Part shown: positions 56-64,000 of the stretch, in pieces
Position numbering within the stretch: position 1 is the stretch's first letter
Layout: the number at the start of each line of letters is the position of its first letter
NCBI GenBank assembly: GCA_027922465.2
Contig: BQMF02000590.1
Span: 169,238 to 233,237, forward strand
Length of the DNA: 64,000 nucleotides
DNA from: Turritopsis dohrnii
Taxonomy: Eukaryota; Cnidaria; Hydrozoa; Anthoathecata; Oceaniidae
Direction of reading: 5' to 3'
Position numbers and translations under genes: made by a program
Notes under the pieces: model-generated
What the model saw: only the letters and a program-made list of their open reading frames with translations
Databases searched by the model: none
What the model was told of the DNA's origin: nothing

Positions 56-885
56 TACACATATTAATAGTCGATTCTCTGTCTGTCTGTCTGTTTGTTT
101 GTCAGTCACGCAAAATGGTAGATTGAGTTGTGAGCAAAATTATTTCTTTTTTTGTGTGCGATGCGAGTTTGAAACAAATACATTGCAACCCCCAATCGAA
201 CGTGACTTTTTTTGGCTGATGAACTAATAGGAATAATGTTTTGTTTTTATTATTATTGTTAGTTTTATATTCCACGTTGACTTGGCTTTGAAAACAGTAC
301 ATCAACTAAAAACAAAGAAACTAACTGATTAAACATTTCGGACATAAAAGCAGCAGTGGCAGAATGTGGCAGCATGTGCGGTTTGCCAGTGTATCCTAAC
401 GCTTGCCTGACTGTCTGAGACGGGTGAACATTTTTTCATAAAAACCGATTGGTAAAAAAAGAGTATCATGAAAGAAAATATTTTTTTGCTTTTGTCTTAA
501 TAGTTGTCTTAATTTCTTTTAATCGATTTCTTTGAATCTATTTTAGTCAGATCGAACATTTTTTTATTCACTTTATTCATTTAGCATGTGCCTTTTTCTC
601 TTTCTTCCTGTGTGATCTTTTTAAAAAGAAAAACCATTTCCCCCTTACGTTTGATCGCACCCATGTTAGAGCGCGTAACTCTTTTAAAACAAAAGCTAAT
701 AAGAAGTTGAAGTTTCCTCTCTCTACGTTTTGAGTGTATTGTTACACTGATAAAAGCTTGGTTTTACCAGAGGTTATGACTTCCAATCTGCTTCTGGTTG
801 AACACAAGTTGTACGAGACGTTTATTGATACAGTGATACAGAGCAGGTGGACATGGGCGGCGAGCGACGCCGCCTTGGTGGCTAG
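56..885 (+). mobile_element. Non-autonomous Helitron, copy 1
   Basis: The 3' end carries the hairpin GGCGGCGAGCGACGCCGCC (7-bp stem, 5-nt loop), then TTGGTGG and a terminal CTAG at 882-885 followed by T, the classic Helitron 3' structure. The 5' end aligns with TCTATATATTAATAG of the other copies, but its first bases have decayed (TA for TC). The interior is closely similar to the copy at 44880-45703. No coding capacity is visible, so it would depend on RepHel supplied elsewhere. Confidence 0.85.
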
Positions 886-1349
886 TAATTATAATAACTG
901 TTTATTTCCAACAATGAAAATAGGGCATCTCCATATTTACAACATGGCTCTTCGTCCCAATAAATACATACATAATATAAAAAGAAAAGAAATATTAAAC
1001 AACATTTTTATTTATATGACAAAAAATTTATAAAACATCATAACTATTAAAAGGTGATAAAATCGTTAAATTTGTAACTGGCATATGTGCAAATTCACAA
1101 GGACAGATAAAGATTGGAATTGTACATAAATGGAGAGGAAAATGAAGGTTGCACATAGTCCAGTAATAAATGAAAGGATAAAATGTAAATTTACTCACTC
1201 CAGTTAAGACAGTACAGCAGTAGAGAATTCAAAAGCAATGGAAGAGAGAAGTTGGAAGGTGGAATTGCAACTGTTAAGAAGAGATCTAGGAGTAAGCCAA
1301 TACTTGGTACGATAAAAAGTTAAATCAGATACTAAATTCAGGTATGAAA
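886..1349. other. AT-rich intergenic stretch
   Basis: I see no gene, repeat terminus or RNA gene here. It separates the first Helitron from the 3' end of the minus-strand LINE. Confidence 0.5.
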
Positions 1350-3650
1350 CTAAATACTACTGATGTTTCTTGCAAATGCAAGGTCAAGTTGATATCGTTT
1401 AACTAAACGTGAAAATGTTTTATAATTCTTTTCTGTTCTTATATTAACTGGTAGGTCATTGAAAATTTTACTAACTAAGACCTTAAATGTTTTTGTGTCC
1501 ATATTTGATGGCAGTGAATGCTTATTAATATTATGAAGTCTTACGTCTCTAGGTTTGAAAGTCAGCTTTAGATATTCTGGGAAAGTTTCATCGTAAATCG
1601 CTTTATGCGCTAATTTTAATTGGCAATAGTTAATTCGTTCGATCGTTGGTATCCAGCAAAGATTTATAACATCCCAAGTACGAGAATATCTTTGCGTAAC
1701 AAACGAAGCAGCTGATCTCATCACTTTTTGTAAGCGGTTAATTTCGATATGGTTAGCATTTGCAAGTAGTGGTAAAGCATAGTCTACTTTGGATAACACC
1801 TGTGTTTCAGCCAGTTGCTTTCATCTGTTGTAGTTAGCATATCTTTTCAATATACGGAATACGGATAGTTAAGCAAAGCATGATTTCACAACTTCATTTA
1901 TGTGAGTCTTCCAAGATAAGTTCTCATCAAAATTAACACCTAATACCTTCCAGTTTCTTACTCTTTTGATGGATCCATTATCTACTGCAATTTTATATGC
2001 ATTAATGTCTGAAAGATTATGAATGTCATACATTCTTCTTGTTGCAAATAACATCGATTTTGTTTTATCAAGATTGAAAATCATATTTTTGCTTTTGGGG
2101 TACTGCAACATATCTTGCATAACTTTTTCAAGCTTTGAAGCATTTTGATTTAGTTTCGACGGTCGGAAATGTTCGTAACAGGTAGTGTCATCAGCATATT
2201 GGCAGATGTTAGTTTCAATCAAGTTTTGCATGTCAGATACGTACAAGTTAAAAAGAATTGGGCCCAACACAGAGCCTTGCGGAACACCAAATTCTACTGG
2301 CTTTCTCTGTGAAGATTTCTCGTTCACTTGAACAAACTGTCGTCTTTCACACAAATAACTACAAATATGCTTAACTGAGGTTTTATCAAAACCAAGGTTG
2401 ATCAGGTTTTGTAGTATAGTAGAGTAATTTACGGTATTGAATGCTTAAGAACAGTCAGCAAATATGGCCATGGTGATTTCCCCACGGTTTATTGCTTTAA
2501 TAATATCATCGCGTAATTTCAGTAGTATTGTTGTTGTAGAATGAGATTTCCGAATACCAGACATGGATTCTTTTAAGATTTGTTCTTTTTTTTGATGGGC
2601 CATTATACGTTCAAAGACTTTGTAAAGCACTGGTAAAATTGATATAGGCCGGTAATCATTGTTACTTTCTGGGTTTCGTATTTTTGGAACCGGTGTTACT
2701 TTCGCGATTTTCCATTGATGTGGAAATTTTTCTTGATGCAAAGCAGAGTTTATAATGTGTGAGAGTGGTGATGCTATGATATCTGCTACAGATTTTATGA
2801 TAGAAGTTGGTATATTATCTGGACTGGTGGAACAGTCGCCCCTCAATGATTTAATTTCCTTTACTATCTCTTCATATGTAACGTTTTTAAATTTGAAGGC
2901 ATTGACGGATGAATAATTAGCTTCCTCAACAAGTTTATGAAGTACATCTTGATTAACAGGCTTAGCACCAGTAATGCGTTATGCAGTGCCGATGAAATGA
3001 TTCTTTAGTGAATTTGGATTAGCAACAATGTTTTTCAAATTTGGATCCAAAATTCTGTGTATGATTTTCCAGACCTCCGGCTGATAAAAAACACCAAAAA
3101 GAATATCGCTGTTTCTATTTTTTCCCTTAAGTTCGAACCATAATGTTTCAATATCAGTGTCTTTATTAGATAAGTCATCTCTAGGTGTTACCTCTATATC
3201 GTCACCTATATAGGCAGCTACACCACCTCCTAATTTATTTTTTCGATTTTGGTGAAGTAATTGAAGTCCAGGAATTTGGACATAATCGAGTTGGTATTTA
3301 TTTGATGTTAACCATATCTCACTTAATGTATACACATCAAAAGGATAGTCATTCACATATGCGGTGCATTCAGAGAAAGTTGATATGAGCGACTGTGTAT
3401 TTAAATGCATTACCTTTAAATACGATTTTTCCTTGAACTTTTCTTGTAGATTTTGAAGCATACCATCGTTGGATTCAATAAATTCACTTGAATCTGCAGT
3501 GTCAGGGATAAAACGACAGTTACTGAACGGTAGCTCATGAAAATTGCAAGAATCGCATGTCCATTTTACTGGTGCAGCTGATGTTATGCTCTTTGCCTTT
3601 GTCACGGGTAAATTAGAACAAGTAACATGTGTAAGTTCTAAACACAGTGT
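1350..3650 (-). pseudogene. CR1-like LINE ORF2 (PHD finger, endonuclease, reverse transcriptase), degraded
   Basis: Read on the minus strand, the order is as follows. A Cys/His cluster at about 3655-3540 fits a PHD-type finger (CTLC, HVTC, WTCDSC). An APE endonuclease start follows (VMHLNTQSL, LSEIWL, GGGVAAYI). Then comes the reverse transcriptase (VTPVPKIRNPESNNDYRPIS, GVPQGSVLGPILFNLY, and an intact YADD at about 2175-2200), and last the LINE C-terminal region (VLGVNFDENLSWKTHI, then 1799-1350). Frame breaks lie near 2980, 2445 and 1860. The endonuclease jumps from its middle straight to the linker, so its C-terminal half appears deleted. A PHD finger before the endonuclease is typical of CR1/Jockey-group elements. 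Non-functional. Confidence 0.85.
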
Positions 3651-3660
3651 GCACAGGAGA

Positions 3661-5415
3661 CGTTTTCTATTATTTCCAAGGCCAATACTACATATTTAGG
3701 AGATGAAGCTTTTTTGTTTAAAGTTTTTTTGATGATTGCATTCTGCGGACTATACGGAGTTGTTTATTGAAACCGGGTCCAGGATTTAATTCTATATCAC
3801 CAGATTCTAAGATAATGTTAAACGTTGCTACACTATTGGGATAATAATCAACTGTAGATTTGGCTCTTTTAATATGTCTTTTAATTTCAATTTCCTTCAG
3901 ATAGCTTTTTCATTGTAATGTACTACCTTTGGATACATCTTGTTTACTTGATACAGTTTGTAAGATAATGATTATACTAATTATCAGCAAAATATATTTC
4001 ATTTTGTGTTGCAACGGTTTCTATTTGTTGATTTATGAGAACGATGTGTAGCATAAACATTAACTCTGAAATTCCAACCGAAAGCAACAAACATCCAACA
4101 TAAAAAATCTCTCACCAAAAATATCACCACAGTTAGTCCAGGATTCCAGCTATACACATAAATTCAGTACCAGGTACTATTCGAACATCCTCAAAACGAT
4201 CAAAGCATTAATCAACATAACTATCATAGACCTCAATTCAGAGCGCCAGAAACACGTCCATCCGCCATGACAAACGAACTATTAATTATATCTATTTACT
4301 TAGAACACAGTTAGTATGCTGGATAAATAGAGTTGGTTAACTGTTGTGAAGTAGCCTGAGGAGATTTGAGCTCAGATTAAAAATGTGAATGCTTTCTTTT
4401 TGTTATAAACTCTTTAGCTATAGAAATTCTGCCATTACGTTTGTGTTTTAAATTATCATTCATAAGGTAAATGTGCTCTTGAAGTTTCTTTTAGTTTGTT
4501 TTGGTCTCTTTCAATATCGTCATAGAATGTTTTCATATATTCAAAAATCTTTAGCTATACACATTCTATTATTAAGTTCATGTCTTCAGTTATTGTTTTA
4601 AGTTGAATATATGTTCTCGAAGTTCCTTTTTGTTTGTTTGTCATAATACGATTAGGTATTTGAATCATTATGTATTTGAAATCTTTTTTCTTTTAGATTA
4701 GCAAAATAAAAAATGCAATAACCATAAAGAAATGAAACTCATGGTGTCAATGGTTTGTGAAGAACAGATTATCAATTCTAAAAATTCTGTCCAATGTAAC
4801 TTCCACATGAAAGAAACACAGTTGCAAGGTATCGATTTGTTTTCAATTCACATTTCGTAATGTTATTCAATGTTTGCTTTTGTGTTCTGTATTATGTATT
4901 GCTTTTTTTACACTTCAATTCTATTCTGTGTATACAATATACACTTCTTTATTGGATTGGCATTTGCTTCTACATTAGATCTTCTGCATGTAAAAACATG
5001 ATTTTGGTCTGTAGTAGGGCATTTTAAGTGATGCAATGTTTGTTGCACGTCTCCAGGGTAAAAAATAATTTTACAAAACCTTCATTCAGTTCAGTTCCAG
5101 TGATACACATAGGCATTTATATTTATTATAATAAGATGTTGGATTCTTTGGTGTTTTATTATGTTTTGTTTTACGTAGAAGTTACTTTGCATTTTCTGTG
5201 TATCAAAAAATTGTTTTTGGTCAATAGTAGGGCATTCTAAGTATTGCGATGTTCGGATATAATTTGCTTCTCCAGGGTAAAAACTTGCATTCTGATTAGG
5301 TTAATAGTTAGGACATTGGTTTTGCATGTTTTCGCTGTTCGCTCTCGTTGAATATAGACGTATTAAGCATGCTCTTCAAAAAAATTTTAAAAATCTACAA
5401 AATAACTCTTTAAAA
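3661..5415. other. Gene-free AT-rich region with short dispersed repeats
   Basis: No supported gene. The first part may be the 5' region of the minus-strand LINE. A motif of about 45 bp containing TTTTGGTC...AGTAGGGCATT occurs at about 4985-5040 and 5195-5255. A diverged copy lies at about 12955-13025, on the far side of the LINE and mariner insertions. Confidence 0.4.
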
Positions 5416-27276: not shown

Positions 27277-27663
27277 ATGAATTCTGATCATGACTATGGA
27301 ATCCCTCAAAGGTTTGCATTGCCTAGATCACAATTTGATAGAGATGTAGTTGATGCACGGCAACAACAACAACAACCCCCTGCTGATGACCCTCAACAAC
27401 GTCGTCGCATTAGAAATGCTGAACGACAAAGGAGATATCGTGCAAATCAAAGTGAGATTCGTGCTCAATTGACAGGGGTGAGGGATGCACAACTTCAAAG
27501 ACAGCGACGGGCTAATGAGCAACCGGAACAAGTTGCTGCTCGACTTGAAGCGCATGCTCACCGACAACAGGCGCGAAGAGATAACGAGCAACCTGATCAA
27601 GTAGCTGCTCGACTTGAAGCATTCCTACTTGAATTAGGAAGTGGAGCGATACTGATACCATAA
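27277..27663 (+). pseudogene. RepHel leader fused by deletion to helicase sequence
   Basis: Codes for a Gln/Arg-rich leader with two repeats (RRANEQPEQVAARLEAHAHR, RRDNEQPDQVAARLEA), as at the start of animal Helitron RepHel proteins. It passes straight into FLLELGSG, a segment from the helicase domain (often W/F-L-L-x-L-G-x-G). The HUH nuclease and helicase motifs I-III normally lie between; their absence shows a large internal deletion near 27615. A stop follows at 27661. Confidence 0.72.
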
Positions 27664-28528
27664 AAAAGGATGAGCCATTTAAAGACTCCATCGAAATTCC
27701 AAATGAATGTGTTGTGCATGAAAATAATGATATCGTCCACTCTATTTTTAGTGATGCTGGAGGAGAGGATATGTCGAGTCGTGTAATTCATACACCGACG
27801 AATGATGAGGCTTTAGTTATTAACGAACGGATTCTTCAGGGAATGCCAGGTGAAACAGTCACGTACTTTAGTGTCGATTCTGTTGTTTCTGATGAGCAAG
27901 AAGAGATTGACCTATATCCGATGGAGTTCATCAATTCGCTTACTCCTTCTGGAATGCCTCCACACTGCTTTAACTTGAAAGTCAACAGTATAGTGATGCT
28001 GCTGCGAAATTTATCGTTGAAGGACGGTTTATGCAACGGCACCCGATTAGTCATCCGTAATCTCCGAGAGAATATCCTTGATTGTGAAGTGCTGACGGGT
28101 ATCTCCGCTGGAAATCGGGTGCTCATTCCTAGAGTAACATTATGTCCCAATGATACCAACCTTCCGTTTCAGCTGAAGTGTACACAATTTCCTCTCCATT
28201 TGTCCTACGCAATAACCATAAACAAAAGTCAAGGTCAGACTTTTGAACGGGTTGGTATTTACATGCAAAGGCCTTGCTTCAGTCACGGTCAACTTATGTT
28301 GCATTTTCACGAACACGAAGCTTTGAAGCGGTGAAAGTAAAGGTTTGTAGAACTTTACAGCAAGGCTATGTTAGAGAGAGATGCTACACTAGAAATGTAG
28401 TCTACCAACAGGTATTAGGAATATTTTTACCTTGCAAAAATATATGTGCAATTGATATTAAATGTTTTGAATTGAAACTTTACACAAGGTTAATGAGGAG
28501 GCATTACATTACATTGCCTGGAAATTAA
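27664..28528 (+). pseudogene. RepHel C-terminal helicase motifs
   Basis: Reads IEIPNECVV, VINERILQGMPGE, LTPSGMPPHCFNLKVNSIVM, GLCNGTRLVIRNL and then SYAITINKSQGQTFERVGIY (motif V), the typical end of Pif1-type Helitron helicases. At about 28295 the frame shifts by one. The correct continuation (TYVAFSRTRSFEAVKVKV, motif VI) is in the second frame, to 28528. Confidence 0.85.
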
Positions 28529-33775: not shown

Positions 33776-34306
33776 CTACCCAGGCAGGTGGATAATATTG
33801 AAGCACCAGGGAAGCGTTCTCTGTTTCAGCCGGAATAGTCTCGTATTGGATATCTCGTCCAATGTTCTGTCCCCGAAGACTTTGGGGAGCGACTTATGAT
33901 CGGTCGCAACAATGAGGTCTCGACATCCCAGGGTGCACCACTTTGTCTGCTCGAGGCCCCAGCTTATGGCGAGGGCCTCACCTTCGATGGGTGCGTAGTG
34001 TTGTTCCGCGGATGACAGGACTCTGTATCCAGCCAGGGTTATCCGCCAACAATCTGGGCAGCAGTCAGGTACCTTGCTAGGACAGGAACAGTTGTTTTGC
34101 AAAAGAAAGTATCCAATGCCTTGTTTTGACCAATCTGTTCGCAGGCAAGTTGGACGCTCCAAGTCGAATATCTCGACGCCAGATCTGATCGCATCAATAA
34201 TGGCGGCTTTTGATGAGGAGAAAGCCGCATCCATTGGAGCTTCTCGGGGTTCAGCACAATGCCTGCGTTTCCCACAAGGGTTAGGAAGTCGATGGTACAC
34301 CACCAA
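33776..34306 (-). pseudogene. Gypsy RNase H region
   Basis: Reads AAIIDAIRSGVEIFD, CLRTDWSKQGIGYFLLQ, YAPIEGEALAISWGLEQ and VATDHKSLPKVFGDRTLDEI, the standard Ty3/gypsy RNase H blocks. It lies in a different frame from the RT that precedes it (shift near 34250), so Pol is broken here unless frameshifting occurs. Confidence 0.85.
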
Positions 34307-36597
34307 TGCTCCTCAAGGTTTTGGTCGTAGTGAAGGGTGTCATCGATGATACGTTCTTTGCGTGGGAGCTCGGCTATAATGGCATCGAATCTGTGGTTGT
34401 AACCGTCCCCTAACGATAAGAAGCCCTGTGGTGCTTGCTTATAGCGCCATCGACCAATGGGGGTGATAAATGTGGTCAGGTGGCGATCAGACTCACGGAG
34501 GGGAAGGCTATGATAGCCATTCCAGGCGTCCGTCACGGTCTTCCAGGTATCACGTGGGATCCGACGAGAGACATGGAATGGGGATTCAGCATTGAGCATT
34601 TCTCTCCTGCAATGTTTGTTAAGGGGAGAGAGGTCAACTGTCCTGCGCGGGGATCCATCCTGCTTCCTTGTGATAACCATGCGGTGACACCAAGTCACTG
34701 CTTCACCAATGGGCACCCGTTCAATGACTCCCAGTGCTTCGTCGCGATGTAGGTCTGAATTCACCTTTTCCTGCAAGTGCATCGGCACTGGTATCGCGGA
34801 GTGGCAGGCTGTTGGTTTCGCATCATCACGAAGGTGTATTTCTACCAGAGGGCCATCTATCCGTGAAAGTTGTTGGTGTGGACAGGTATTGAAGGTGGAG
34901 CTGGCATATCGTTGAAGGAGCCAGTCCCGCATTTTGTCATTGTTGGCAGGGTTGCAGGGAAACGGAAGTTTCTTCGGGCGATCAGGGACGATTGTCCTCC
35001 GAGGGCAGTTACAAATGCCACCATCGTCGTTCGTCGCTCCACATATGGATCCATCATTTGACATGGTAGCTCCACTGATCATCTCACATAGGACTGTACA
35101 AGTACTGTTGTCGAACTTGCCAATGGTGGGGAAGTGGCTATCGATAATTCCCAGCTGGAGCATCGTTTCGTGGGACAGGTATAGCGCGTTGGCATCACGA
35201 CTGACGTAGACCATTGAGCGAGAAAGGACGTTCCCCCCTGCGTTGGTCGTTCCTGTAATTTGTGCGAAGAAGATGCCATCAATGCAAATCGGAGATTTGT
35301 TAGCTGCGTTCAGTGACATCTTGGCAGGGTGCAGGTCGGACATCTTAAAGCCAGACTGCAAGTACTGGTCCAGTGACCACAGCTCAGATTGAGCACCTGA
35401 GTCAGTGATTCCTTCCACATTAACGATACTGGATGGCCGACTCTCAAGCGATAGCTGCAGGTCAACGGTTGGGTGTTCTCTCATGCGAGCCTTCCTCCAT
35501 TCGCCTTTGCTAAAAATTTGGTGGTCCGCCGGTACCGTGGTCCGAGACTTCGAGGGCTTCTGGGACGAGTGGTGATGGATCGATGATATTTGACCAAAAT
35601 AGTCCACCGGGGCAACACTCACAGAACTGGCATCTCCCTGCTTCTTGCGCTGTTGGATGTCTCTGTTTTTTTTACAACAGGTTTCACATCGTGTGTGGGG
35701 TTTCCGATTCCACCCTCGTGACTTCTTGGAGAACACCTTAAAGGTCCTACCACAATCTGAGCACCCCGCAGTGCTGCACTTGTCAGTCTCACTCGGGGAT
35801 GTGGGGCAGTGTCTGGCGGGGTTGGCTCTATTGCGACGGTATGATGACAAGGCGGAGATCGATGTGGCTGGGTTAGCGTTCCTGGCGGTTTCCCTGTTTT
35901 TGACGAAGGCTATAACTTCTGTTCGAGCTTTCGTCTGGATGTTGTCGGTGCTGAGGGCATCACGGCGTATATCCAGGTCTGCTATTCCATTTAACAATAC
36001 GTCCTGTATGACCTCGTCAGTATAGTAGACATTGCCACGGTATGCAGTGTTGCAATTGCCACAAAGACCGTGGTACATGGTCTGGAATTCACAGGTTTCC
36101 GCCTTACCCTGAACTCTCGCAGCGAATGTTCGGAATGGCTCGCTAGGGTCCTGTCTCATGGCCAGGAGCTCCGATCTGACCACACCGAGGGCGACGGGAA
36201 TAACGGCCAAGGTCTTGAGGGTCTGTAGCGCCTCGGTGAGTGGGAGAACAGTGAATGCAGGGTTTGCTCGTAGGGCGATGTTGCCAAGGTGTTCATTGGC
36301 ACATTCAAGTAGCTGACCAGATGCTGCGTCATCTGGGATCATGGATCCAACACGAAAGGTCTCCCATCGTCTGATGAATGCGTTCCAGTCCTTGGTTGTG
36401 GAGGTGAGCCGGACCTTAGGACGCTCAAGCCTGGGTGCACGTGGGGCAGTGGAAGCAGCGTGTGTATGCGAGTGCACGTTCAGTATTGCAGCTGCCCCAA
36501 TGACGTCAACATCGTCCGTTTGAAACCCACATCCAGGAATTGGGCATGTGAGGACTGTCATAATTAACTGCTCAGAGTATTCCAGTATAAGATTCAA
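34039..36597 (-). CDS. Gypsy Gag-protease-RT open frame
   Basis: 852 codons. The N-terminus has a C2H2-like finger (CPIPGCGFQTD...HSHTH). Gag includes FRTFAARVQGKAETCEF and a Cys-rich block (CSTAGCSDC, CETCCKK). The protease site is ITDSGAQSELW (DSG). RT includes AVTWCHRMVITRKQDGSPRR, TVDLSPLNKHCRRE, APQGFLSLGDGYNHRFD and RIIDDTLHYD, the YxDD equivalent with both Asp. The last part after about 34250 is out of frame. The ATG lies four bases inside the 5' LTR boundary; a second Met 12 residues in may be the true start. Confidence 0.88.
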   Translation of the reverse strand: MNLILEYSEQLIMTVLTCPIPGCGFQTDDVDVIGAAAILNVHSHTHAASTAPRAPRLERPKVRLTSTTKDWNAFIRRWETFRVGSMIPDDAASGQLLECANEHLGNIALRANPAFTVLPLTEALQTLKTLAVIPVALGVVRSELLAMRQDPSEPFRTFAARVQGKAETCEFQTMYHGLCGNCNTAYRGNVYYTDEVIQDVLLNGIADLDIRRDALSTDNIQTKARTEVIAFVKNRETARNANPATSISALSSYRRNRANPARHCPTSPSETDKCSTAGCSDCGRTFKVFSKKSRGWNRKPHTRCETCCKKNRDIQQRKKQGDASSVSVAPVDYFGQISSIHHHSSQKPSKSRTTVPADHQIFSKGEWRKARMREHPTVDLQLSLESRPSSIVNVEGITDSGAQSELWSLDQYLQSGFKMSDLHPAKMSLNAANKSPICIDGIFFAQITGTTNAGGNVLSRSMVYVSRDANALYLSHETMLQLGIIDSHFPTIGKFDNSTCTVLCEMISGATMSNDGSICGATNDDGGICNCPRRTIVPDRPKKLPFPCNPANNDKMRDWLLQRYASSTFNTCPHQQLSRIDGPLVEIHLRDDAKPTACHSAIPVPMHLQEKVNSDLHRDEALGVIERVPIGEAVTWCHRMVITRKQDGSPRRTVDLSPLNKHCRREMLNAESPFHVSRRIPRDTWKTVTDAWNGYHSLPLRESDRHLTTFITPIGRWRYKQAPQGFLSLGDGYNHRFDAIIAELPRKERIIDDTLHYDQNLEEHWWCTIDFLTLVGNAGIVLNPEKLQWMRLSPHQKPPLLMRSDLASRYSTWSVQLACEQIGQNKALDTFFCKTTVPVLARYLTAAQIVGG

Positions 36598-36600
36598 ACA

Positions 36601-36751
36601 TGGACAAAAGTCATTCGATTAATATGTCATATATATTAGAATGTTTGAATCTAAAATACAAACAAAGAGAACAAACAAAAGAACAAACAAAAGAACAAAC
36701 AAAAGGACAATGAACTATAAGATAGTGAATGTCATTAGTCATAACTCTCCA
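36601..36751 (-). repeat. 5' LTR of the gypsy element
   Basis: 151 bp, TGGACAAAAG...ACTCTCCA on the plus strand, near-identical to the other LTR except for extra ACAAACAAAAG units. Such short LTRs are at the low end for Ty3/gypsy. Confidence 0.88.
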
Positions 36752-37483: not shown

Positions 37484-38321
37484 CCTACTACCCCAGACAG
37501 AGGGTAAAAAAACTAATACGCTACATTTCCAATTAGCAGTAAGAATTCAAAATCTCTAAGGACCAATTAATTCTCATTGCAAATGATGTGTTGACTAGGT
37601 CGGTTTGTTGTGCGGAAATAAACTCTTTCTTGTGCCAGTGGTTCAAAAAACACAAAAGGCTAAATAAAAATGACTGAAACGTAGTAGAAAAAAGAATGGA
37701 TAAGAAATACGTATGGATTGTATGGAAAATCCTAGCACACAGCCCTGTTGAGCACATTGATGCTCAGTCAACTAATAATTTTAGTGTGCTTTGAAAAGTT
37801 AAGAAGCCTTACTTCTAGAATTTAAGAGATTGTCAAAAAGGTCAACAAACAATATATTCTCATCCACAACTTACATTAATAGCATGAAGGTATTGGTTTC
37901 CCAGAAACAAACCTCAAAGTAAAGCCTTCCCGGGGAAAGGGGAAAATGTCTACTGAACTCTAACTAAGAGTGGCAACAGTCCATGTACTGTAGAAACGGG
38001 AAAATTTGCCTAAAAGCCATACTTGGAAAATTTTTTTGCTTGTGCATTGAAGGTGTTATCTGAGTGAATTCCACTTAGGAAATCTGATGCAAGTGAGCCA
38101 AATTGCTCTTTTTGTATGACCCTGTAGGAGGTTTCGTTGAGTTACGGCAGCCAAAATGCATCTCTCTGTTAGTATTGATGACAATATTTGATCTTGCCAA
38201 ATGAGCTCCGTTCCGCGAAAAGCTACACTTCGCAGTTATTAAACTATTTTGACGATAACATTACGAAAAAGTGGTTCATATTTCATTGTATTGGCAAAAG
38301 TATTCGTTGCTCATAACTAAC

Positions 38322-38770
38322 ATGGAAGACGCTATTCAAGATTTTGAAGTTGACTTTGATTTAAATGAAGACAATGAAATTGATGAAAGGACACTGTTTT
38401 ATCAAAATGAATATGAAAGTTTTTAAGTGAAGATTCCAGACGATATTTCTGTTGATGAGTTGAACGAACATGAGCAATGTTGCCACTTATTCAGTTTTGT
38501 GATGAATCAGAGATCACCACTACTACAGTAAATAACAGCACCACGTCACTGGTTTGCACTAAATGCCAGAAACTTTATAAAAGGAAAACACACTATGACA
38601 AGCACCTACTAATTTGTGGCATTAACTGTAAGTTTTCTTTTTATTCTCACTATCCCCTCTTCACAAAAGCCTGTTTGAAAGGTTCTCTTCATTTTATTTT
38701 GTAGCCCATAAACAGTTAACAACTAAAATGAGACCTGGAGTTGATGATATAGACACCAACAAGCAAGGTG
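38322..38770 (+). pseudogene. Zinc-finger host gene, 5' exons (duplicate copy)
   Basis: Same content as 40250-40698: exon 38322-38627, intron 38628-38704 and exon 38705-38770 up to the transposon. See the entry at 40250. As copy 1 is followed only by a truncated transposon, it has no downstream exons of its own. Confidence 0.65.
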
Positions 38771-39400
38771 TATGGTGGCCGAGAACTGCCACAGGGAAAA
38801 ATAAAAAATGAATAAAAATTCAAATGAAAACAATATTTAAATCAAACAAAAATTAAACTTGAGAACAAAAACTAAATTTAAATTGACGCTATTGGACTTC
38901 AATTCAAATCAAAATCAGATAAAAAGTTGAATCGATTTTGCTTTTAAATCAACTTTGGTTTCTCAATTCGAAATGAAATTAAGTTGATTTTTTTGGTCAT
39001 TGGTTCAAACTACTATACTTTGAAATTACCTTGCTGCCACATGGACAAGAACTTTCAAAATCAAACAAGATGTCTGATAGTAAGAAAGATAAGCAGAAGT
39101 GGGCAAAGTATGCTGCTGGCGTTCGAAACAAAAAACAAATGAAAAGAAAAGAAAAGGACGTTGTGGCTGGATCACATATTTTGGTAGAGAATGAAATGAT
39201 TGTCCAACGATTAGGAAGCGTCCCAACAGGGAAGGCAATGAAATATGAGAGAATGGGTGCCCAAGAATTTGTTGCTTATCCTTATGAAGAAATAACACTA
39301 GATCTTATAAAGACAGCTTGCTACGAACATTATAAGAGCAATCTTGTTGATGCTGGTAACATGGTGTGTGATGTTTTAGCCTCACAAAATGGGCCTTCCT
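38771..39400 (+). mobile_element. Truncated left end of the kinase transposon (duplicate)
   Basis: Begins with the TIR TATGGTGGCCGAGAACTGCC preceded by AAGGTG, as at 40699. The kinase frame from 39031 runs 123 codons identical to the full copy, then 11 foreign codons at the duplication junction and a stop at 39435. Confidence 0.88.
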
Positions 39401-39411
39401 ACTACTACTTC

Positions 39412-41328
39412 CCTACTACCCCAGACAGAGGGTAAAAAAACTAATACGCTACATTTCCAATTAGCAGTAAGAATTCAAAATCTCTAAGGACCAATTAATT
39501 CTCATTGCAAATGATGTGTTGACTAGGTCGGTTTGTTGTGCGGAAATAAACTCTTTCTTGTGCCAGTGGTTCAAAAAACACAAAAGGCTAAATAAAAATG
39601 ACTGAAACGTAGTAGAAAAAAGAATGGATAAGAAATACGTATGGATTGTATGGAAAATCCTAGCACACAGCCCTGTTGAGCACATTGATGCTCAGTCAAC
39701 TAATAATTTTAGTGTGCTTTGAAAAGTTAAGAAGCCTTACTTCTAGAATTTAAGAGATTGTCAAAAAGGTCAACAAACAATATATTCTCATCCACAACTT
39801 ACATTAATAGCATGAAGGTATTGGTTTCCCAGAAACAAACCTCAAAGTAAAGCCTTCCCGGGGAAAGGGGAAAATGTCTACTGAACTCTAACTAAGAGTG
39901 GCAACAGTCCATGTACTGTAGAAACGGGAAAATTTGCCTAAAAGCCATACTTGGAAAATTTTTTTGCTTGTGCATTGAAGGTGTTATCTGAGTGAATTCC
40001 ACTTAGGAAATCTGATGCAAGTGAGCCAAATTGCTCTTTTTGTATGACCCTGTAGGAGGTTTCGTTGAGTTACGGCAGCCAAAATGCATCTCTCTGTTAG
40101 TATTGATGACAATATTTGATCTTGCCAAATGAGCTCCGTTCCGCGAAAAGCTACACTTCGCAGTTATTAAACTATTTTGACGATAACATTACGAAAAAGT
40201 GGTTCATATTTCATTGTATTGGCAAAAGTATTCGTTGCTCATAACTAACATGGAAGACGCTATTCAAGATTTTGAAGTTGACTTTGATTTAAATGAAGAC
40301 AATGAAATTGATGAAAGGACACTGTTTTATCAAAATGAATATGAAAGTTTTTAAGTGAAGATTCCAGACGATATTTCTGTTGATGAGTTGAACGAACATG
40401 AGCAATGTTGCCACTTATTCAGTTTTGTGATGAATCAGAGATCACCACTACTACAGTAAATAACAGCACCACGTCACTGGTTTGCACTAAATGCCAGAAA
40501 CTTTATAAAAGGAAAACACACTATGACAAGCACCTACTAATTTGTGGCATTAACTGTAAGTTTTCTTTTTATTCTCACTATCCCCTCTTCACAAAAGCCT
40601 GTTTGAAAGGTTCTCTTCATTTTATTTTGTAGCCCATAAACAGTTAACAACTAAAATGAGACCTGGAGTTGATGATATAGACACCAACAAGCAAGGTGTA
40701 TGGTGGCCGAGAACTGCCACAGGGAAAAATAAAAAATGAATAAAAATTCAAATGAAAACAATATTTAAATCAAACAAAAATTAAACTTGAGAACAAAAAC
40801 TAAATTTAAATTGACGCTATTGGACTTCAATTCAAATCAAAATCAGATAAAAAGTTGAATCGATTTTGCTTTTAAATCAACTTTGGTTTCTCAATTCGAA
40901 ATGAAATTAAGTTGATTTTTTTGGTCATTGGTTCAAACTACTATACTTTGAAATTACCTTGCTGCCACATGGACAAGAACTTTCAAAATCAAACAAGATG
41001 TCTGATAGTAAGAAAGATAAGCAGAAGTGGGCAAAGTATGCTGCTGGCGTTCGAAACAAAAAACAAATGAAAAGAAAAGAAAAGGACGTTGTGGCTGGAT
41101 CACATATTTTGGTAGAGAATGAAATGATTGTCCAACGATTAGGAAGCGTCCCAACAGGGAAGGCAATGAAATATGAGAGAATGGGTGCCCAAGAATTTGT
41201 TGCTTATCCTTATGAAGAAATAACACTAGATCTTATAAAGACAGCTTGCTACGAACATTATAAGAGCAATCTTGTTGATGCTGGTAACATGGTGTGTGAT
41301 GTTTTAGCCTCACAAAATGGGCCTTCCT
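39412..41328 (+). repeat. Tandem duplication, copy 2
   Basis: Second copy. Here the sequence continues beyond the duplicated block into the rest of the kinase and the transposon, so this copy is probably the original and copy 1 the duplicate. Confidence 0.93.
40250..40698 (+). pseudogene. Zinc-finger host gene, 5' exons
   Basis: Exon 40250-40555 starts MEDAIQDFEVDFDLNEDNEI (acidic). After a stop and a frame change it has a C2HC finger, CTKCQKLYKRKTHYDKHLLI followed by C. Donor ACT|GTAAGT, acceptor TTTGTAG; exon 40633-40698 reads SHKQLTTKMRPGVDDIDTNK and QG, then is cut by the transposon TSD. Removing the transposon (40699-44860) and the Helitron (44880-45703) gives a frame that reaches a GT donor at about 45710. 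The gene probably continues at 45778. Its function is unknown; it looks like a multi-copy cnidarian zinc-finger gene now decayed. Confidence 0.6.
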
Positions 41329-42401
41329 GCTCCAAGCTCTCTCATATAAAAAACTTCAAATTGCTTTTTGTACGATTCATCTCTGGAAAGCCTGTTTTGA
41401 CAGACTCTGCAGCAATGTCTGTAGTCCGTACACTTGCATCATCTTCATCAACTTTTCTTCATACACCTCCTGCTTCTACACCTATCAACAATAAGATAAA
41501 ACCACTCATATTGGACCAGAAAAGCTTGCCTGGTTGTTCAACAAGAGCATCTGCAACAAAATCAATTTGTTATCCTAAAAGTTTATCCATCTCTTCAATG
41601 CTTAAGGTTGGGTCAGCAATCTCATATAAATTACCAGTATCAACAAACATTAAACTTTTACAGTTTGATGTGGGTAACTTAGAGTGGAATTCTCTATACC
41701 AAAACAAAAACATGATTATTGAAGTATCTCCATTTGCTGAAGGTGGCTTCAGATCTGTGTTCAAAGCAAGGTCAACAACTGATGGTACTGAATTTGTAGT
41801 GAAAAGATTTTTGCCAGAAACATTAACAGCAATGGAAAAGGTCAACGAGATTCTTAAAAAACCTGAGACAGCAGAAACTCTTTGTAGGAAGGCAATTCAG
41901 ACGCACATGCTAGCCAAGAACTTTGCGGATCAACTACGAATGTTTGTCAGAAATACATGCCTTAGAGAATTTGGGGAGACTTTTTTCTATGAAAAAGTAT
42001 TTTTTGGTATTATTGAAAAAGAAGATAGTAATGAATATGTTATGGTAGAGCCATACATCCCTGGAACATTCAAGAAATACCTTAATAATACAGGAGCACC
42101 AGTACGAGAACACCCTGAAGATTTAGATCTTGTTGAAAAAGCTATGTGTTTAGCCCACTATTCATATGAAAAATCTAGTGAAAAGTTACTCCTTGTTGAC
42201 ATTCAAGGATCAGATTATGCACTATATGATCCTGAAATTGCTACGACTGAGAAAGCGTTGGATGAAAGTGGTGGTTTGCAGTTTTGTATGGGGAACCTTT
42301 CTTCAACAGCATTTAAAACTTTCTCATCTCTTCACATTTGCAATATTTACTGTCATTTAATTGGCTTGAAACCTTTAGCAAATAGTATTAGTTCTGATTG
42401 A
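40998..42401 (+). CDS. Alpha-kinase (MHCK/eEF2K type) encoded in a transposon
   Basis: An intron-free frame. I prefer the ATG at 40998 (MSDSKKDKQKW) to the upstream in-frame ATG at 40959. About 467 aa. A basic N-terminus (KKDKQKWAKYAAGVRNKKQM) and a Ser/Thr/Pro-rich linker precede the atypical kinase domain, about the last 230 residues. Landmarks are FAEGGFRSVFKA (Gly loop), FVVKRF (ATP-binding Lys), VMVEPYIPGTFKKYLNN, LLLVDIQGSDYALYDPEI and FCMGNLSSTAF. The terminal Zn site is SLHICNIYCHLIGLKPL, H-x-C-x3-C as in MHCK, eEF2K and TRPM kinases. The usual GxGNxG motif is weakened (GNLS). No internal stop, unlike most genes here, so it may be active. It would phosphorylate Ser/Thr; the substrate is unknown. 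Confidence 0.9.
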   Translation: MSDSKKDKQKWAKYAAGVRNKKQMKRKEKDVVAGSHILVENEMIVQRLGSVPTGKAMKYERMGAQEFVAYPYEEITLDLIKTACYEHYKSNLVDAGNMVCDVLASQNGPSCSKLSHIKNFKLLFVRFISGKPVLTDSAAMSVVRTLASSSSTFLHTPPASTPINNKIKPLILDQKSLPGCSTRASATKSICYPKSLSISSMLKVGSAISYKLPVSTNIKLLQFDVGNLEWNSLYQNKNMIIEVSPFAEGGFRSVFKARSTTDGTEFVVKRFLPETLTAMEKVNEILKKPETAETLCRKAIQTHMLAKNFADQLRMFVRNTCLREFGETFFYEKVFFGIIEKEDSNEYVMVEPYIPGTFKKYLNNTGAPVREHPEDLDLVEKAMCLAHYSYEKSSEKLLLVDIQGSDYALYDPEIATTEKALDESGGLQFCMGNLSSTAFKTFSSLHICNIYCHLIGLKPLANSISSD

Positions 42402-43090
42402 TAGGAGTTTGATTTTTGTTGGTTGGTTGTTTCTTATGTTTTTATTTTCTCACATTGGCTTGAAAAAGCTATGTGGAACCTTTCTTCAGCAGCCTTTGAA
42501 ACTTTCTTATCACTTCACATTCGCAATATTTTACTGTCATGCAATTGGGTTAAAACTTTTTCAGCCAAAAGTAATAATATAACATTTTTTATAAGCATAA
42601 TAGATATATGCATATAGACTGAAAGTTGTCAAAACATTGAGCATTAGTTAAGCCTATCTCGAGCCTGGGGAACATTGCTAAGTATAAAGTATATAGAAAA
42701 GAAAATTGGCATTTGAAAATTCATTTTCAGAGAAACCACTCCATTGCAATTGATTGTGGCATGTGTTCTTGCAATGTGCAGACGAAAATTAAAATAAAGC
42801 ACGTTATAAGCATGAACTTTGATTTCTAAAAAATTTTAAGCATAACCGAGGCTGAGCCAAATTTACCTGATGCTTATAAAAAAGGCATAGTTAAGATTGA
42901 TAGCAGCTCAATTTTTTTGGGCATTTCATTTTTTTGTTTTTATTTTTCCACTTTGGCTTTTGTTAAGATTCTTGTTGTAATAAAGTGTAAAGTTTTGCTT
43001 TGTGCACATATTATGCATTTTTTTATATTATGTTTCCATTTTTGTGGTATAAATGTACAACTATATTCTATAAAATATACAGACTTCTAT
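42402..43090. other. Transposon interior between the two genes, with a kinase C-terminal relic
   Basis: At about 42470-42560 a second, diverged copy of the kinase end is present (NLSSAAFETFLSLHIRNI, then HAIGLK-like out of frame). It follows the intact one within 70 bp. It shows that the kinase 3' end was duplicated or that a second kinase gene was lost. The rest is AT-rich and non-coding. Confidence 0.65.
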
Positions 43091-44593
43091 TTACATTTTA
43101 TATTTAAGATCCAAAAAAGACTGCACATAGTTCATTTCTGTTACTTCATCAACAAGGGTTAGCTCACACAACTCTTTAAAGTTTGAATCCATGAAACAAT
43201 TACTTTGTTCATTCACACCTGACTCTCTTTTGATTGTTTCGAGTTCTTCCTTGGAGACAACAAAGCCTATGATCATAGAAAATATTGACTTTTAGAACAA
43301 AGATCAAATATATGTATAAGTTTTAGAAATAAACTCTTACCACATTGTTCTAGGCCATATTTTTCAGGAAAATCGTAAATATGGTTTGGGATTCCATCAG
43401 CCATTAATGTGTTTTTTTGATACCTGATTCTGTGAGGGTTCCATATAACGTCTTTAAATTCATCTAATTTGTTTTGTATTAGTGGTATCATCACAAAAGC
43501 AAGTTTCATTCTTAAATAGACAAAAAAATAAATATTGAATTAATAAACTTAATAACATTTTGCTCCGATTGAAGAATCGAATTGTTCATATTTACTTCAT
43601 CACATCATAACAGTATTTTGATTTACAAATTTCTTTCAACAAAAACCAACGGAAATAATGAACATTTTTACCTGTCATTCACGGAATCTCGATCATAATG
43701 TTTTTCTTCAAGAAGCCAAGAAAGTCCAACTTTGTAAAACTTTTCTAATCTTTCGTGGAGTTCTCTCCACCATCTTTCAATCTAGAAAAGTTATATAAAT
43801 ATTTATTTATATTATACGACAATAAGTGTTTTAACCTTTTCATATTTTCTCTTACCTGATTTGATGTTGATGGGCCGAATATCACTGCATCCAAGGCATC
43901 ATCCAGGTCTCCATGATTATCTCTCAAAAAACAGTGCATTGTTGCCATTATCGAGGTTTCTGTTCCTTTGTCCATTCTGATATAGTTTGGAATTACTTGG
44001 AATTCAGTGAGGTATTCCAAATACCATCTACCAATTACTTCAGGTAAGGAATTGGTGTGCCAGACCTTGAGAAATAAGATTTTACGGCTAGCTGTATCCA
44101 TGCACCCATATATTGCCAGTGGAAATGTTGAATTTTGATAGCCCATGAGCTTATCGTGACCATCAAGAGAATAAACCCAGTCAGGCCCTTTAGTAACAAA
44201 ATTCGTCTTCTTTTTTTTCTTCTTTAAACCCGGTCGCTTTTCTTCTAAAACACTCTTGTATTCTTCTGTTAAAATATTATATACAAGATCTCTAGGAACA
44301 CAAAGTTCATATTTTTGCCTTATTTTAAGATGTAGGGCTCGGTATCCGAGTAATTTTCCTGCACCTTCCATTTCTTTACGAACAGCAACTCTTACATCAC
44401 CTTCAGTAGCATATTTGTCTTGATAGTAGATCTCAAAATGTCTAAGTCTTCTATCTAATGTCCTAAGACTCTAATTATAATTTGGATAGTCTTTTTTAAC
44501 GTAATCAAGTATTTCGTTTCTTTGCATTGACTGTGTAACATATTGCCTCAAATCTTCTTCAAGACTAGTGTCATTTTCCCATTCCGACGACAT
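43091..44593 (-). CDS. Integrase-type DDE transposase, four exons
   Basis: Exons (minus): 44593-43856, 43781-43672, 43510-43341, 43266-43091; all GT-AG with matching phases. The N-terminus (MSSEWENDTSLEEDLRQYV) has an HTH-like segment (SLRTLDRRLRHFEIYY). The rve-like catalytic domain has Asp in VYSLDGHDKLMG, Asp in YIRMDKGTETSIM and Glu in SNQIERWWRELHERL, the last formed across the first splice. Exon 3 (MIPLIQNKLDEFKDVIWNPH) and exon 4 complete the family's usual C-terminus. One in-frame TAG near 44470 (PNYN, stop, SLRTL) probably replaces a Trp codon; otherwise intact. It lies tail to tail with the kinase in the same element and would catalyse its excision and insertion. Confidence 0.85.
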
Positions 44594-44879
44594 TGTTTAA
44601 CAAAACAAGATCAACAAAAATTTTGTAATAATAAGGGAAATTCCCGCCGTAGTTTTGATGTATAGGGGTTTGGACCAATGACACAAAATTAAAATCGATT
44701 TTAATTTGAAACTCATTCGAAAACAAAATACAAATGAATTTGATTTGATATGAATTTGATTAACATTTGAATTTAAATTTAGTTTTCAAATCAATTTAGA
44801 TGTCGTTTTTGTTTTTTAATCTAATTTTCCCTGGGGCAGTTCTCGGCCACCATAAAGGTGTATTTATGTATTGTGTATA

Positions 44880-61204: not shown

Positions 61205-63117
61205 AGCCTCTATTAAAGTTTGTCGAAGGAAACGTATCTAGAGGTTCGTTGGAACTACTGCCTGTGAAGTTGAGGATAACTTGCCCACTTAACTGCTCAA
61301 CTCCCACAGTCATGGAGGGATGAGTCAGAACATATTGGCATTTTTCCTGCAATTTTTGCACCTTCTCTTGAGGTAATTTTATGATCATCTCTACAGAGTC
61401 TATTTCCATGCCTAAAAAACATATTTTTTGGACTGGCTCCATCACTGACTTTTTTAGATTTATCACAAATCCCAACTGTTGAAGTAAGAAAATTAGAGTG
61501 TCACGGGCCATGAACAAGTCTTCCCTTGTTTGGCTCATTAGCAACATGTTGTCTAAGTAAATGATCACACGAATGTTTATTCGTCTCAATATAGAAATCA
61601 GGTACTTTCAGTAACTTTGTGAAGATTCGTGGAGCTGGACCAAGACCAAAGCATAGGCATAGAAACTCGTACAGGTTTCCCTGCCACTGAAACCTGACAT
61701 ACTTTTGAGACTTCGGGTGCAGAGGAATACAAAAATATGCATCTGTTAGATCGATTTTGCACAGAAAGTCCCTCTCCTGCAACATTTCCTTCAACAAATG
61801 TAGGCCTTGCATTTTGAAGTGTTGGTAAGGTATGAATGAGTTGAGATTCCTTAGATTGATTACTGGTCGGTTCCCCCCATCCTTTTTCCCTACCAGGAAA
61901 ATATTGCTTACAAATTGGCCGCTCCTGTGAGAAACTTTTTGAATGGCTCCTTTTGTCATCATGGCTTCTATTTCCTCCAACACAAGAGAAACTTCTTCCT
62001 GCTTCATTTGTGCTTGATGAGGGGGAGTGTTTTGACATGGTTCTGACAGAAAAGGAATTTGGTAACCAGAAACAACCCCTAATATGTCTGGGTCTCTTGT
62101 CAACTTTCCCCAATTTTTTTGGAAATGTTTCGACCTTCCTGCCAGTGGATAGTTGCCTATTGGTTCTCTGAAAAGGTTTTTCACTAATGGATGAACGTGC
62201 TGAAGATTTTTCTCTGGAAGTATCTCTGGATAAACCTTGTTTCTCACTCTCAATGGAGCCATGTTGACAAAGGTTTCCATGTGTTTTCTGACACTTACCA
62301 CTGATCCGTGGGAAGCTGGACTTTGGATTCTTCCTGAAGTCATTACGCGAAAAAGTTGATTGCCCCCCATTTCTCTTCCCTTGAAATGAGGGGCTTGGTA
62401 GAAAGGCTTGCTACGTTGTTGGTTGATACCAGAGAAAGTTGACTGGAACTTGGGCTTGTTGTTGTGTGAAGGAAGAAATTCCTTTGACTTCTCTTTCACC
62501 TTAGCTTTGTCTATGACATGTTGTTGAAATTTTCCACCAAACAGTTGTGAACCAGAATCTTCAAGAACTTGACTGTGGTCTTTCAGCATGGATTTCACCT
62601 TCTTTTTATCCAGCATTATGGCAGACATTGCATTTAAACGCCTGTTGTATGTAATAGCATTAAATGCTTGACCCACTAACATGACCGTCTGTTCAACAGT
62701 TTGTGACATCTCTTGCAAGGAAAGTTCTGGTCGACATTCTGCTGGCATGCCTAATGTTGCTTCCACAGCATACCATGTCCTACTCAAGGGACCATAAACA
62801 TTCACAAGTTTGTGTTGGATTTTTTCTAATCCGTCATCTAGAGTTAATTCTACTCTACATCGATTTTCCTCTAATAGCTCACGAAAGAATTCGTCCATCT
62901 TCTTAGGCTGACGAATGTTTGAAGGAACAGGATTTTCAGTCATTATACTGTCTCGAATGCCCTTGTCTTGGACAAACATGTCCATATATTTATTTGTATA
63001 GTCAGCTAATTCTGCTGGAAATTCATAAGCATTATGTTTCTCTTCTGCCAATGGCTCGAAACACTGCCTCTTGAAGGATGGTTCAACGACCTCGAGGTTC
63101 GACGACAGGCACTTCAC
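60951..63117 (-). pseudogene. DIRS Gag-like and reverse transcriptase frames
   Basis: 63117-61501: Gag-like N-terminal half (ELADYTNKYMDMFVQDKGIR), then RT (KVSHRSGQFVSNIFLVGKKD, PVINLRNLNSFIPYQHFKM, LCKIDLTDAYFCIPLHPKSQ, FGLGPAPRIFTKLLK). A frameshift near 61590 moves RT to 61589-60951, with VIIYLDNMLLMSQ where YLDD is expected, then LGFVINLKKSV and FLGMEID. The second catalytic Asp is Asn. RNase H follows in a third frame from 61204, so another shift lies near 61230. Confidence 0.85.
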
Positions 63118-63393
63118 TACTCAAAGGCTCAACGGCCGAGTTAGTTTCACTCACAAACACTACGGTTCATATCACCCTGTTGTGCAATCACATTACAATT
63201 AATTATGTTTTGATCATCCATGATGAAATAGATTGATTTGGATTTTCGAAAATAAGTAAAACATGCGAACAGTTGCGGGAATACTCGAAAAAGAGAAATT
63301 GCGAAGCTCGGGGTACCATTATGAAGGAGAATGGGCTCGATTATCCAATATTAAATCGTATGGAAATTTTATATGAAATAAAATTGCATGAAC

Positions 63394-64000
63394 CTAGTGT
63401 TATAGATATTGTAAACAGGAACCGCCAAAATATTGAACCACATGCTGAAGTAGTGCAGAAAGCTTTTGAACAGTATATGAATGATCAATTTACTTTGCAA
63501 TCTAGTTCATTTGGGCAGCAAGAAAATGACGAGGTCCTCCGAGGAATTGGTAAATAATGAACACCCTAATAACAACGATGGTAATCATTCAGATATTACA
63601 ACTACACGTTCAGACTCAACCTGTTCTTCTTTCAGATATTGATGTTAATACTCATATTCAAACTCTTAATAATCAACAAAGAGATGTACTTGATTTTGTT
63701 CATAAATGGGCAATTGATTATATAAAAAATCTTAATTGTAAGAAATCGACGACAATAAAGCCATTCTATTTATTTATAACTGGTGGTGGAGGAGTTGGAA
63801 AGTTTAATTTATTGACAACTATCTATCATTCTGTGTCCAAAATTTTAATATACAGAGGTGGTGAACCAAGTAAAGAAAGAATTCTAGTCCTTGCTCCAAC
63901 AGGAGTTGCAGCAGTGAATATAAATGGAACTACTATTCATTCAGGACTGACTATCCCCACAAGAGGAAAGTTATATCCATTAAATGATAAAGCAAAAAAC
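63394..64000 (+). pseudogene. Helitron Pif1-type helicase, continues past the window
   Basis: LHEPSVIDIVNRNRQNIEPH, then after frame changes near 63557 and 63640: TLNNQQRDVLDFVHKWAIDY, FITGGGGVGKFNLL (Walker A, with Phe where Ser/Thr should follow Lys), LVLAPTGVAAVNINGTTIHS (motif Ia). It is the continuation of the fragment at 55411-55616, and the DIRS element separates them. The Walker A change and frameshifts suggest a dead copy. It runs off the window end. Confidence 0.82.

Follow-up and report, generated by a model that had tools for sequence, protein, structure and literature searches.

The closest described systems are found among the IS3EU elements. IS3EU/GingerRoot DNA transposons are described as having TA..TA termini, a usually 6-bp target site duplication (TSD) and a DDD/E transposase (PMC10045372). 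For rust fungi, IS3EU elements with the ends TAYGG..CCRTA and 6-bp TSDs are reported, and in the passage on TET-bearing fungal families, all of these carry a TET/JBP gene between oppositely oriented transposase and alpha-kinase genes, the TET/JBP enzyme being interpreted as an escape from methylation-based silencing (PMC12730594). The authors who described Styx in Zymoseptoria depict its ancestor as a two-protein IS3EU element (PMC10853768). The present analysis concerns a 64,000-nt stretch of the Turritopsis dohrnii genome (contig BQMF02000590.1, positions 169,238 to 233,237; the whole stretch is termed the window), in which positions 40699-44854 form a two-gene DNA transposon, a unit of approximately 4.2 kb that encodes an alpha-kinase next to its transposase. 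With a probability of roughly 0.85, this region is one copy of a two-gene element; in this genome, the alpha-kinase is a standing second gene throughout a branch of such elements.

As in the TET-bearing IS3EU elements of rust fungi and truffle, the transposase and alpha-kinase genes of the window element are oppositely oriented, and, as in those of the rusts, the TSD comprises 6 bp and the ends fit TAYGG..CCRTA. The dioxygenase gene, however, is present only in the fungal elements, and their hosts are fungi whereas the named relatives of the window element are cnidarian; that source mentions the kinase twice, in a single passage (PMC12730594). TA..TA termini and a 6-bp TSD are also shared with the IS3EU/GingerRoot elements, in contrast to which the window element bears a kinase, a word that does not occur in the main text describing them (PMC10045372). 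Styx resembles the window element in a transposase of IS3EU origin, in the 6-bp TSD used in its search and in the presence of multiple genes, but its other genes are described as encoding GATA, CCHC and DUF3577 domains and no kinase (PMC10853768).

Compared by description, the window element fits the IS3EU superfamily. A 6-bp TSD is present in the window, in three sister copies and in other families, the ends are TATGG..CCATA with terminal inverted repeats (TIRs) of over 30 bp (48-nt arms), the transposase has an integrase core, and, as in kinase-bearing IS3EU elements, alpha-kinase and transposase genes are situated on opposite strands inside the TIRs. The original prediction, made from the sequence alone, had known of no described eukaryotic transposon with an alpha-kinase; the combination is, however, on record for fungal IS3EU elements (PMC12730594). 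Beyond this source, no further description of a transposon with an alpha-kinase was recognised in a literature search that was not exhaustive. The window element belongs, probably as a cnidarian member, to a type of transposon already on record for fungi, and counts, trees and conservation here show its kinase to be a standing second gene.

Structure of the element and its two genes

The tips of the TIRs (40699-40718 and 44835-44854) are identical at 20 of 20 bases, and the 48-nt arms are 81% complementary. The chance expectation for a 20-mer TIR with at most three mismatches in the window was 0.00 in 100 shuffles. The element is flanked on both sides by a perfect AAGGTG duplication, and its genes are arranged tail to tail (Table 1). 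Matching TIRs, this duplication and the tail-to-tail pair of an intact 467-aa kinase and a spliced transposase had all been proposed beforehand, and each was confirmed, the transposase with four exons. Between the two genes, the longest frame extends over 110 aa from stop to stop, and five intergenic frames scanned against Pfam contained neither a TET/JBP gene nor any other match above the cut-off.

The kinase gene is one uninterrupted frame with its ATG at 40998 and its stop codon at 42399-42401. The PF02816 match (E=2.2e-31) covers all 185 model positions, and the closest PDB profile match is 1ia9 (E=3.2e-32), which we take to be TRPM7. In an alignment of 31 sequences, comprising the window kinase and 30 database relatives, K268, D400, D410, H386, H445, C447 and C451 (numbered from residue 2) are invariant or at least 90% conserved, and the conserved motif residues align with 1ia9. 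Presumably, these positions represent the ATP-site lysine, the catalytic aspartates and the His/His/Cys/Cys zinc site. As these residues are invariant or nearly so, the element kinase very probably works as an enzyme. Approximately 100 bp of the 3' end of the gene are repeated further downstream (Table 1), and the same repeat is present in the three sister copies.

While the catalytic domain is shared with cellular alpha-kinases (TRPM7, MHCK-A, eEF2K, ALPK1), the element kinases differ from these in an N-terminal domain (N-domain) for which Pfam gave no match and the PDB just two, neither of them significant (E values of 0.6-0.8) or to an alpha-kinase chain. Clytia and Paramuricea are named among the kinase matches, and the names of cnidarian kinase relatives include myosin heavy chain kinase A-like and TRPM6-like. 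The organisms named among matches to the window proteins are Clytia, Hydractinia, Dendronephthya, Exaiptasia, Actinostola and Paramuricea, all of which are cnidarians. Fourteen stretches of viral contigs matched a search pattern, none of them a relative.

The transposase, encoded on the minus strand, matches PF24764 (rva_4, integrase core; E=3.7e-7). Its exons are separated by GT..AG introns and join to 398 codons including the stop. One in-frame stop is located in the first exon, and the window copy can at best move with a transposase supplied by another copy. A helix-turn-helix of the model HTH_21, presumably IS3-type, was found in four of six relatives scanned, with every match below the cut-off, and a full-length relative yielded no match in the PDB.

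Occurrence and co-inheritance of the gene pair

A search of the genome (435.9 Mb, 891 contigs) listed 150 of 154 alpha-kinase matches, corresponding to 129 places, and 150 of 161 transposase matches, corresponding to 147 places. For the transposase, 150 of 1019 candidates were scored; the counts leave out the remainder, most of which are probably distant relatives. The 147 listed transposase places comprise 111 close ones (at least 45% identical to that of the window) and 36 distant ones (34-40%). All copy counts may include doubles from uncollapsed haplotypes; the four copies of the window family differ in their TSDs.

In a first count, 84 of the 111 listed close transposase places had an alpha-kinase within 6 kb, with 0.43 expected under uniform placement, and this number rose to 86 after a second kinase search had added places. 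Likewise, 86 of the 129 listed alpha-kinase places are within 6 kb of such a transposase, and 34 of the 37 kinase places found intact among 88 examined have a transposase at this distance. None of the 36 listed distant transposase places has an alpha-kinase within 6 kb. The linked pairs are arranged tail to tail in 49 of 86 cases and with the transposase upstream on the same strand in 32; the transposase is located downstream on the same strand in four and upstream on the opposite strand in one. The N-domain was identified at 110 places, with a kinase domain no more than 4 kb downstream in 94 of them, and it precedes 94 of the 129 listed alpha-kinase places. Long-frame kinases (372-763 aa; C184, C631, C345, C826) resemble host genes and lack the N-domain. 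As one N-domain is common to the element kinases, a single kinase capture is argued for.

One member of the distant transposase group (L032, 868-2259) occupies one uninterrupted frame, and its N-terminus is rich in Cys and resembles a zinc ribbon. A TATGG start resembling a left end is found there at 767, and a right end was not found within the stretch.

A search with the TIR returned 187 matches with at most two mismatches, compared with none for the reversed control. Elements were paired from the 91 listed places that had one mismatch or none, listed two-mismatch places and unlisted ones being left out; four kinase places (C182, C747, C201, C389) were added by hand when contents were assigned, and TSDs were checked for part of the 31 pairs obtained. 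Of these 31 TIR-bounded elements, 25 exceed 1.5 kb. Both genes are present in 22 of the 25 (tail to tail in 16, collinear in 6), the transposase alone in two and the kinase alone in one. One of the transposase-only elements (C158) contains pieces of the kinase N-domain. The six short pairs hold neither gene (five) or part of the kinase (one). A count of same-TIR copies had been put forward as a check of the original prediction, which would have been refuted if such copies never contained the kinase; the kinase is present in most of them. Three 133-bp miniature elements (L034, L035, L036) carry the 20-base TIR of the window element, identical flanks and a TSD matching at five of six positions; as their flanks are the same, they probably represent one insertion that was multiplied.

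Three more two-ended copies, 98-99% identical to the window element, are located on other contigs. Their TSDs (CACATC, GACCTC, GATCTC), together with AAGGTG, give four different 6-bp duplications at four sites. The kinase is open over 467 aa in all four copies, and the transposase is broken in all four in different ways, namely by the stop, a change in the length of exon 2, an internal deletion (L029) and a frameshift in exon 1. Partial copies were found on C292, C389, C700 and C179. More distant families (L009/L010, which is one element covered by two overlapping loci, L012, L022, L027, L028 and C33) have the same anatomy, with TIRs that start with TATGGTG and perfect 6-bp TSDs. L023 has TIRs, a TSD and a kinase fragment, with no transposase match at 1e-5; L020 has the left TIR only, and L013 has none by the same search rule. 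On L010, a complete kinase-transposase element (562-3982, TSD TGTAAG) is directly followed by a second copy of both genes, with a right TIR at 7404 and no recognisable left TIR.

The pairwise distances of kinase and transposase are correlated across 11 loci (Mantel r 0.851, p 0.0002), and also across the eight tail-to-tail loci alone (r 0.903, p 0.0018). For 15 loci, the maximum-likelihood trees of the two proteins have all seven starred branches in common: window with L014, L012 with L018, L010 with L022, L027 with L028 and then L025, and L019 with L033 and then L020. Deeper branches are weakly supported in both trees. The comparison of the two trees suggested with the original prediction thus came out in agreement for every starred clade. 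The two genes have stayed together across the sampled splits between families.

A single clade of collinear pairs was rejected in the transposase tree (p-AU 0.026) and not in the kinase tree (p-AU 0.20). The two genes may therefore have switched their relative orientation on more than one occasion without being separated, a reading that rests on L013, with its long branches and unsure place. In L013, a collinear pair, the transposase groups among the tail-to-tail families and the kinase is very divergent, as might result from a kinase swap or an inversion; two-mismatch TIRs at C21:1283228 and 1295603 would enclose it.

In a protein database, 49 kinase proteins and the 120 listed of 807 transposase proteins gave four coincidences of same-size contigs, of which only a 6387-base contig (P0015, P0054) is strong. 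The others were set aside as weak, one being a long scaffold (1,439,982 bases, Clytia) and two being too short for both genes (1696 and 1385 bases).

Selection and the possible role of the kinase

Between L025 and L027, pN and pS are 0.236 and 0.803 for the kinase and 0.138 and 0.870 for the transposase, and with L028 included the values are 0.24 and 0.80-0.82 for the kinase and 0.12-0.14 and 0.87-0.92 for the transposase; synonymous sites are saturated between families, and these values bound omega and do not measure it. Over seven between-family pairs, the rate of change is 1.5 to 2.3 times higher for the kinase than for the transposase. Between the window element and its three sisters, the kinase differs by 8 to 11 changes per pair, 8-10 of them non-synonymous and 0-1 synonymous, and other close pairs, with both genes read as open frames, gave ratios between 0.56 and 0.65 from a small number of changes. 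In the dN/dS comparison proposed for the kinase, conservation is found between families, and the changes between recent copies look neutral. These patterns show a kinase conserved along the transposing lineages, with individual copies drifting after insertion. Drift of the copies under selection on the transposing lineage is a usual pattern of a transposon gene.

In the mechanism proposed, the transposase would bind the TIRs, move the whole 4.2-kb unit and make cuts in the target that are staggered by 6 bp. Translated on its own, the kinase would phosphorylate one of two targets, the complex of transposase and DNA or a host factor involved in chromatin or silencing, and in this way make transposition more frequent or help it to persist. 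It would be maintained by selection acting on the element and not on the host, and its most likely role is to promote transposition or to escape host control. For most DNA transposons, a transposase alone is generally considered sufficient, and we know of no eukaryotic DNA transposon that depends on a self-encoded kinase. An active-looking kinase kept through family splits points to phosphorylation as a little-known regulatory layer in transposon biology.

The reading of the kinase as a stable second gene is supported by the TIR-bounded copies, the agreeing trees and the conservation between families. Several observations weigh against it. No kinase was found within 6 kb of 25 of the 111 close transposase places, six of which have an intact exon 1. 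The kinases of recent copies show no purifying selection and look as if they drift neutrally, and a single copy may not need its kinase. Among 71 linked pairs (28 with both genes intact, 5 with the kinase only, 17 with the transposase exon only, 21 with neither), 33 have an intact kinase and 45 an intact transposase exon 1, the kinase being the longer target. Accordingly, the better preservation of the kinase that had been noted in the window is true of its own family (4 of 4 compared with 0 of 4) and was rejected genome-wide. As to IS3EU membership, NCBIfam gave no IS3-family match and no usable match to a transposase model.

As to its role, the kinase may be an anti-silencing or host-manipulating factor that acts on chromatin, small-RNA or DNA-damage pathways, outside the transposition reaction, a proposal whose chances are put somewhat below even. 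The lack of a kinase within 6 kb of any of the 36 listed distant transposase places is consistent with it, as is the demethylase gene that fungal IS3EU elements are described to add between the same two genes (PMC12730594). The faster evolution of the kinase relative to the transposase would also point in this direction. Host-facing proteins often evolve faster.

Alternatively, the kinase might have the transposase itself or the synaptic complex as its target, for example as a switch of assembly or a limit on over-production, which is possible at about one chance in three. The close co-divergence of kinase and transposase and the maintenance of the pair in both orientations would agree with such a function; co-divergence is, however, also expected from plain co-inheritance, and related transposases exist without a kinase. 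Because the distant transposases of the genome have no kinase nearby and fungal relatives add a demethylase, an action on host silencing is slightly favoured over one on the transposase.

It is improbable that the kinase is kept by host use, as a domesticated multigene family that the transposon only spreads: the 37 intact places among the 88 examined include three without a transposase within 6 kb, but the other 34 are still beside one, and recent copies show no purifying selection at the level of the host. The chance capture of a host alpha-kinase by this one element, as a passenger with no role, can be dismissed as very improbable and, in our view, is already refuted by the number of copies and the agreement of the trees. 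In its favour, recent copies drift neutrally, and the 25 close transposase places without a kinase indicate that copies can do without one. Against it, 86 of the 111 close places have the kinase, the two trees agree, its database relatives keep the catalytic residues and the host-like long-frame kinases lack the N-domain.

Returning to the alpha-kinase as a standing second gene, a broader proposal can be made tentatively, again at somewhat less than even odds. The alpha-kinase would be ancestral to, and selected in, one IS3EU branch of animals and fungi, the kinase would phosphorylate the transposition machinery or host silencing factors, and both the expansions in rusts and the cnidarian MHCK-like and TRPM6-like genes would be transposon genes. 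The alpha-kinase family is reported to be highly expanded in rusts, in a passage that does not call these kinases transposon genes (PMC4469406), PF02816 appears in a domain table with a ratio of 2.34 (PMC5295586), and one alpha-kinase is listed among 46 proteins under diversifying selection (PMC4150398). We infer that the alpha-kinases concerned are IS3EU genes. Carriage by transposons would account simply for large families of alpha-kinase genes.

Feature coordinates and neighbouring sequences

Table 1. Features of the two-gene element and its partial duplicate (window positions).
Feature	Position	Strand	Basis
Left TSD AAGGTG	40693..40698	.	Sequence comparison
Left TIR, begins TATGGTGGCCGAGAACTGCC, first 20 nt equal to right end	40699..40746	+	TIR comparison
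Alpha-kinase gene, 467 aa, intron-free, open	40998..42401	+	ORF and Pfam
Kinase N-terminal domain common to element kinases	41088..41400	+	Genome comparison
Alpha-kinase catalytic domain PF02816	41736..42353	+	Pfam
Partial repeat of kinase 3' end	42470..42576	+	83% to 42287-42390
Transposase exon 4, including stop	43091..43266	-	
Transposase exon 3	43341..43510	-	
Transposase exon 2; IERWW holds the catalytic E (putative, assigned by inspection)	43672..43781	-	
Transposase exon 1; holds the first and second acidic positions of the DDE triad (putative, assigned by inspection) and the in-frame stop 44471-44473	43856..44593	-	
Right TIR	44807..44854	-	TIR comparison
Right TSD AAGGTG	44855..44860	.	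Sequence comparison
Tandem duplicate of 39412-41331; second left TIR at 38771, truncated kinase, no right end	37484..39403	+	

The tandem duplicate comprises 1920 bp with one mismatch and spans the left end of the element, which provides the window with a third TIR; the kinase within it stops after the first ~111 residues. Because flanking DNA is included and a right end is absent, transposition did not produce it; it is either a recent duplication in place or an artefact of assembly.

Fragments of reverse transcriptase on the minus strand of the window (61504-63120, 34042-36618 and 1872-2444; RVT_1, two of them below the Pfam cut-off) belong to other retroelements. Pieces of a Pif1-type helicase at 27633-28331 and 63554-63998 are perhaps the remains of a Helitron.

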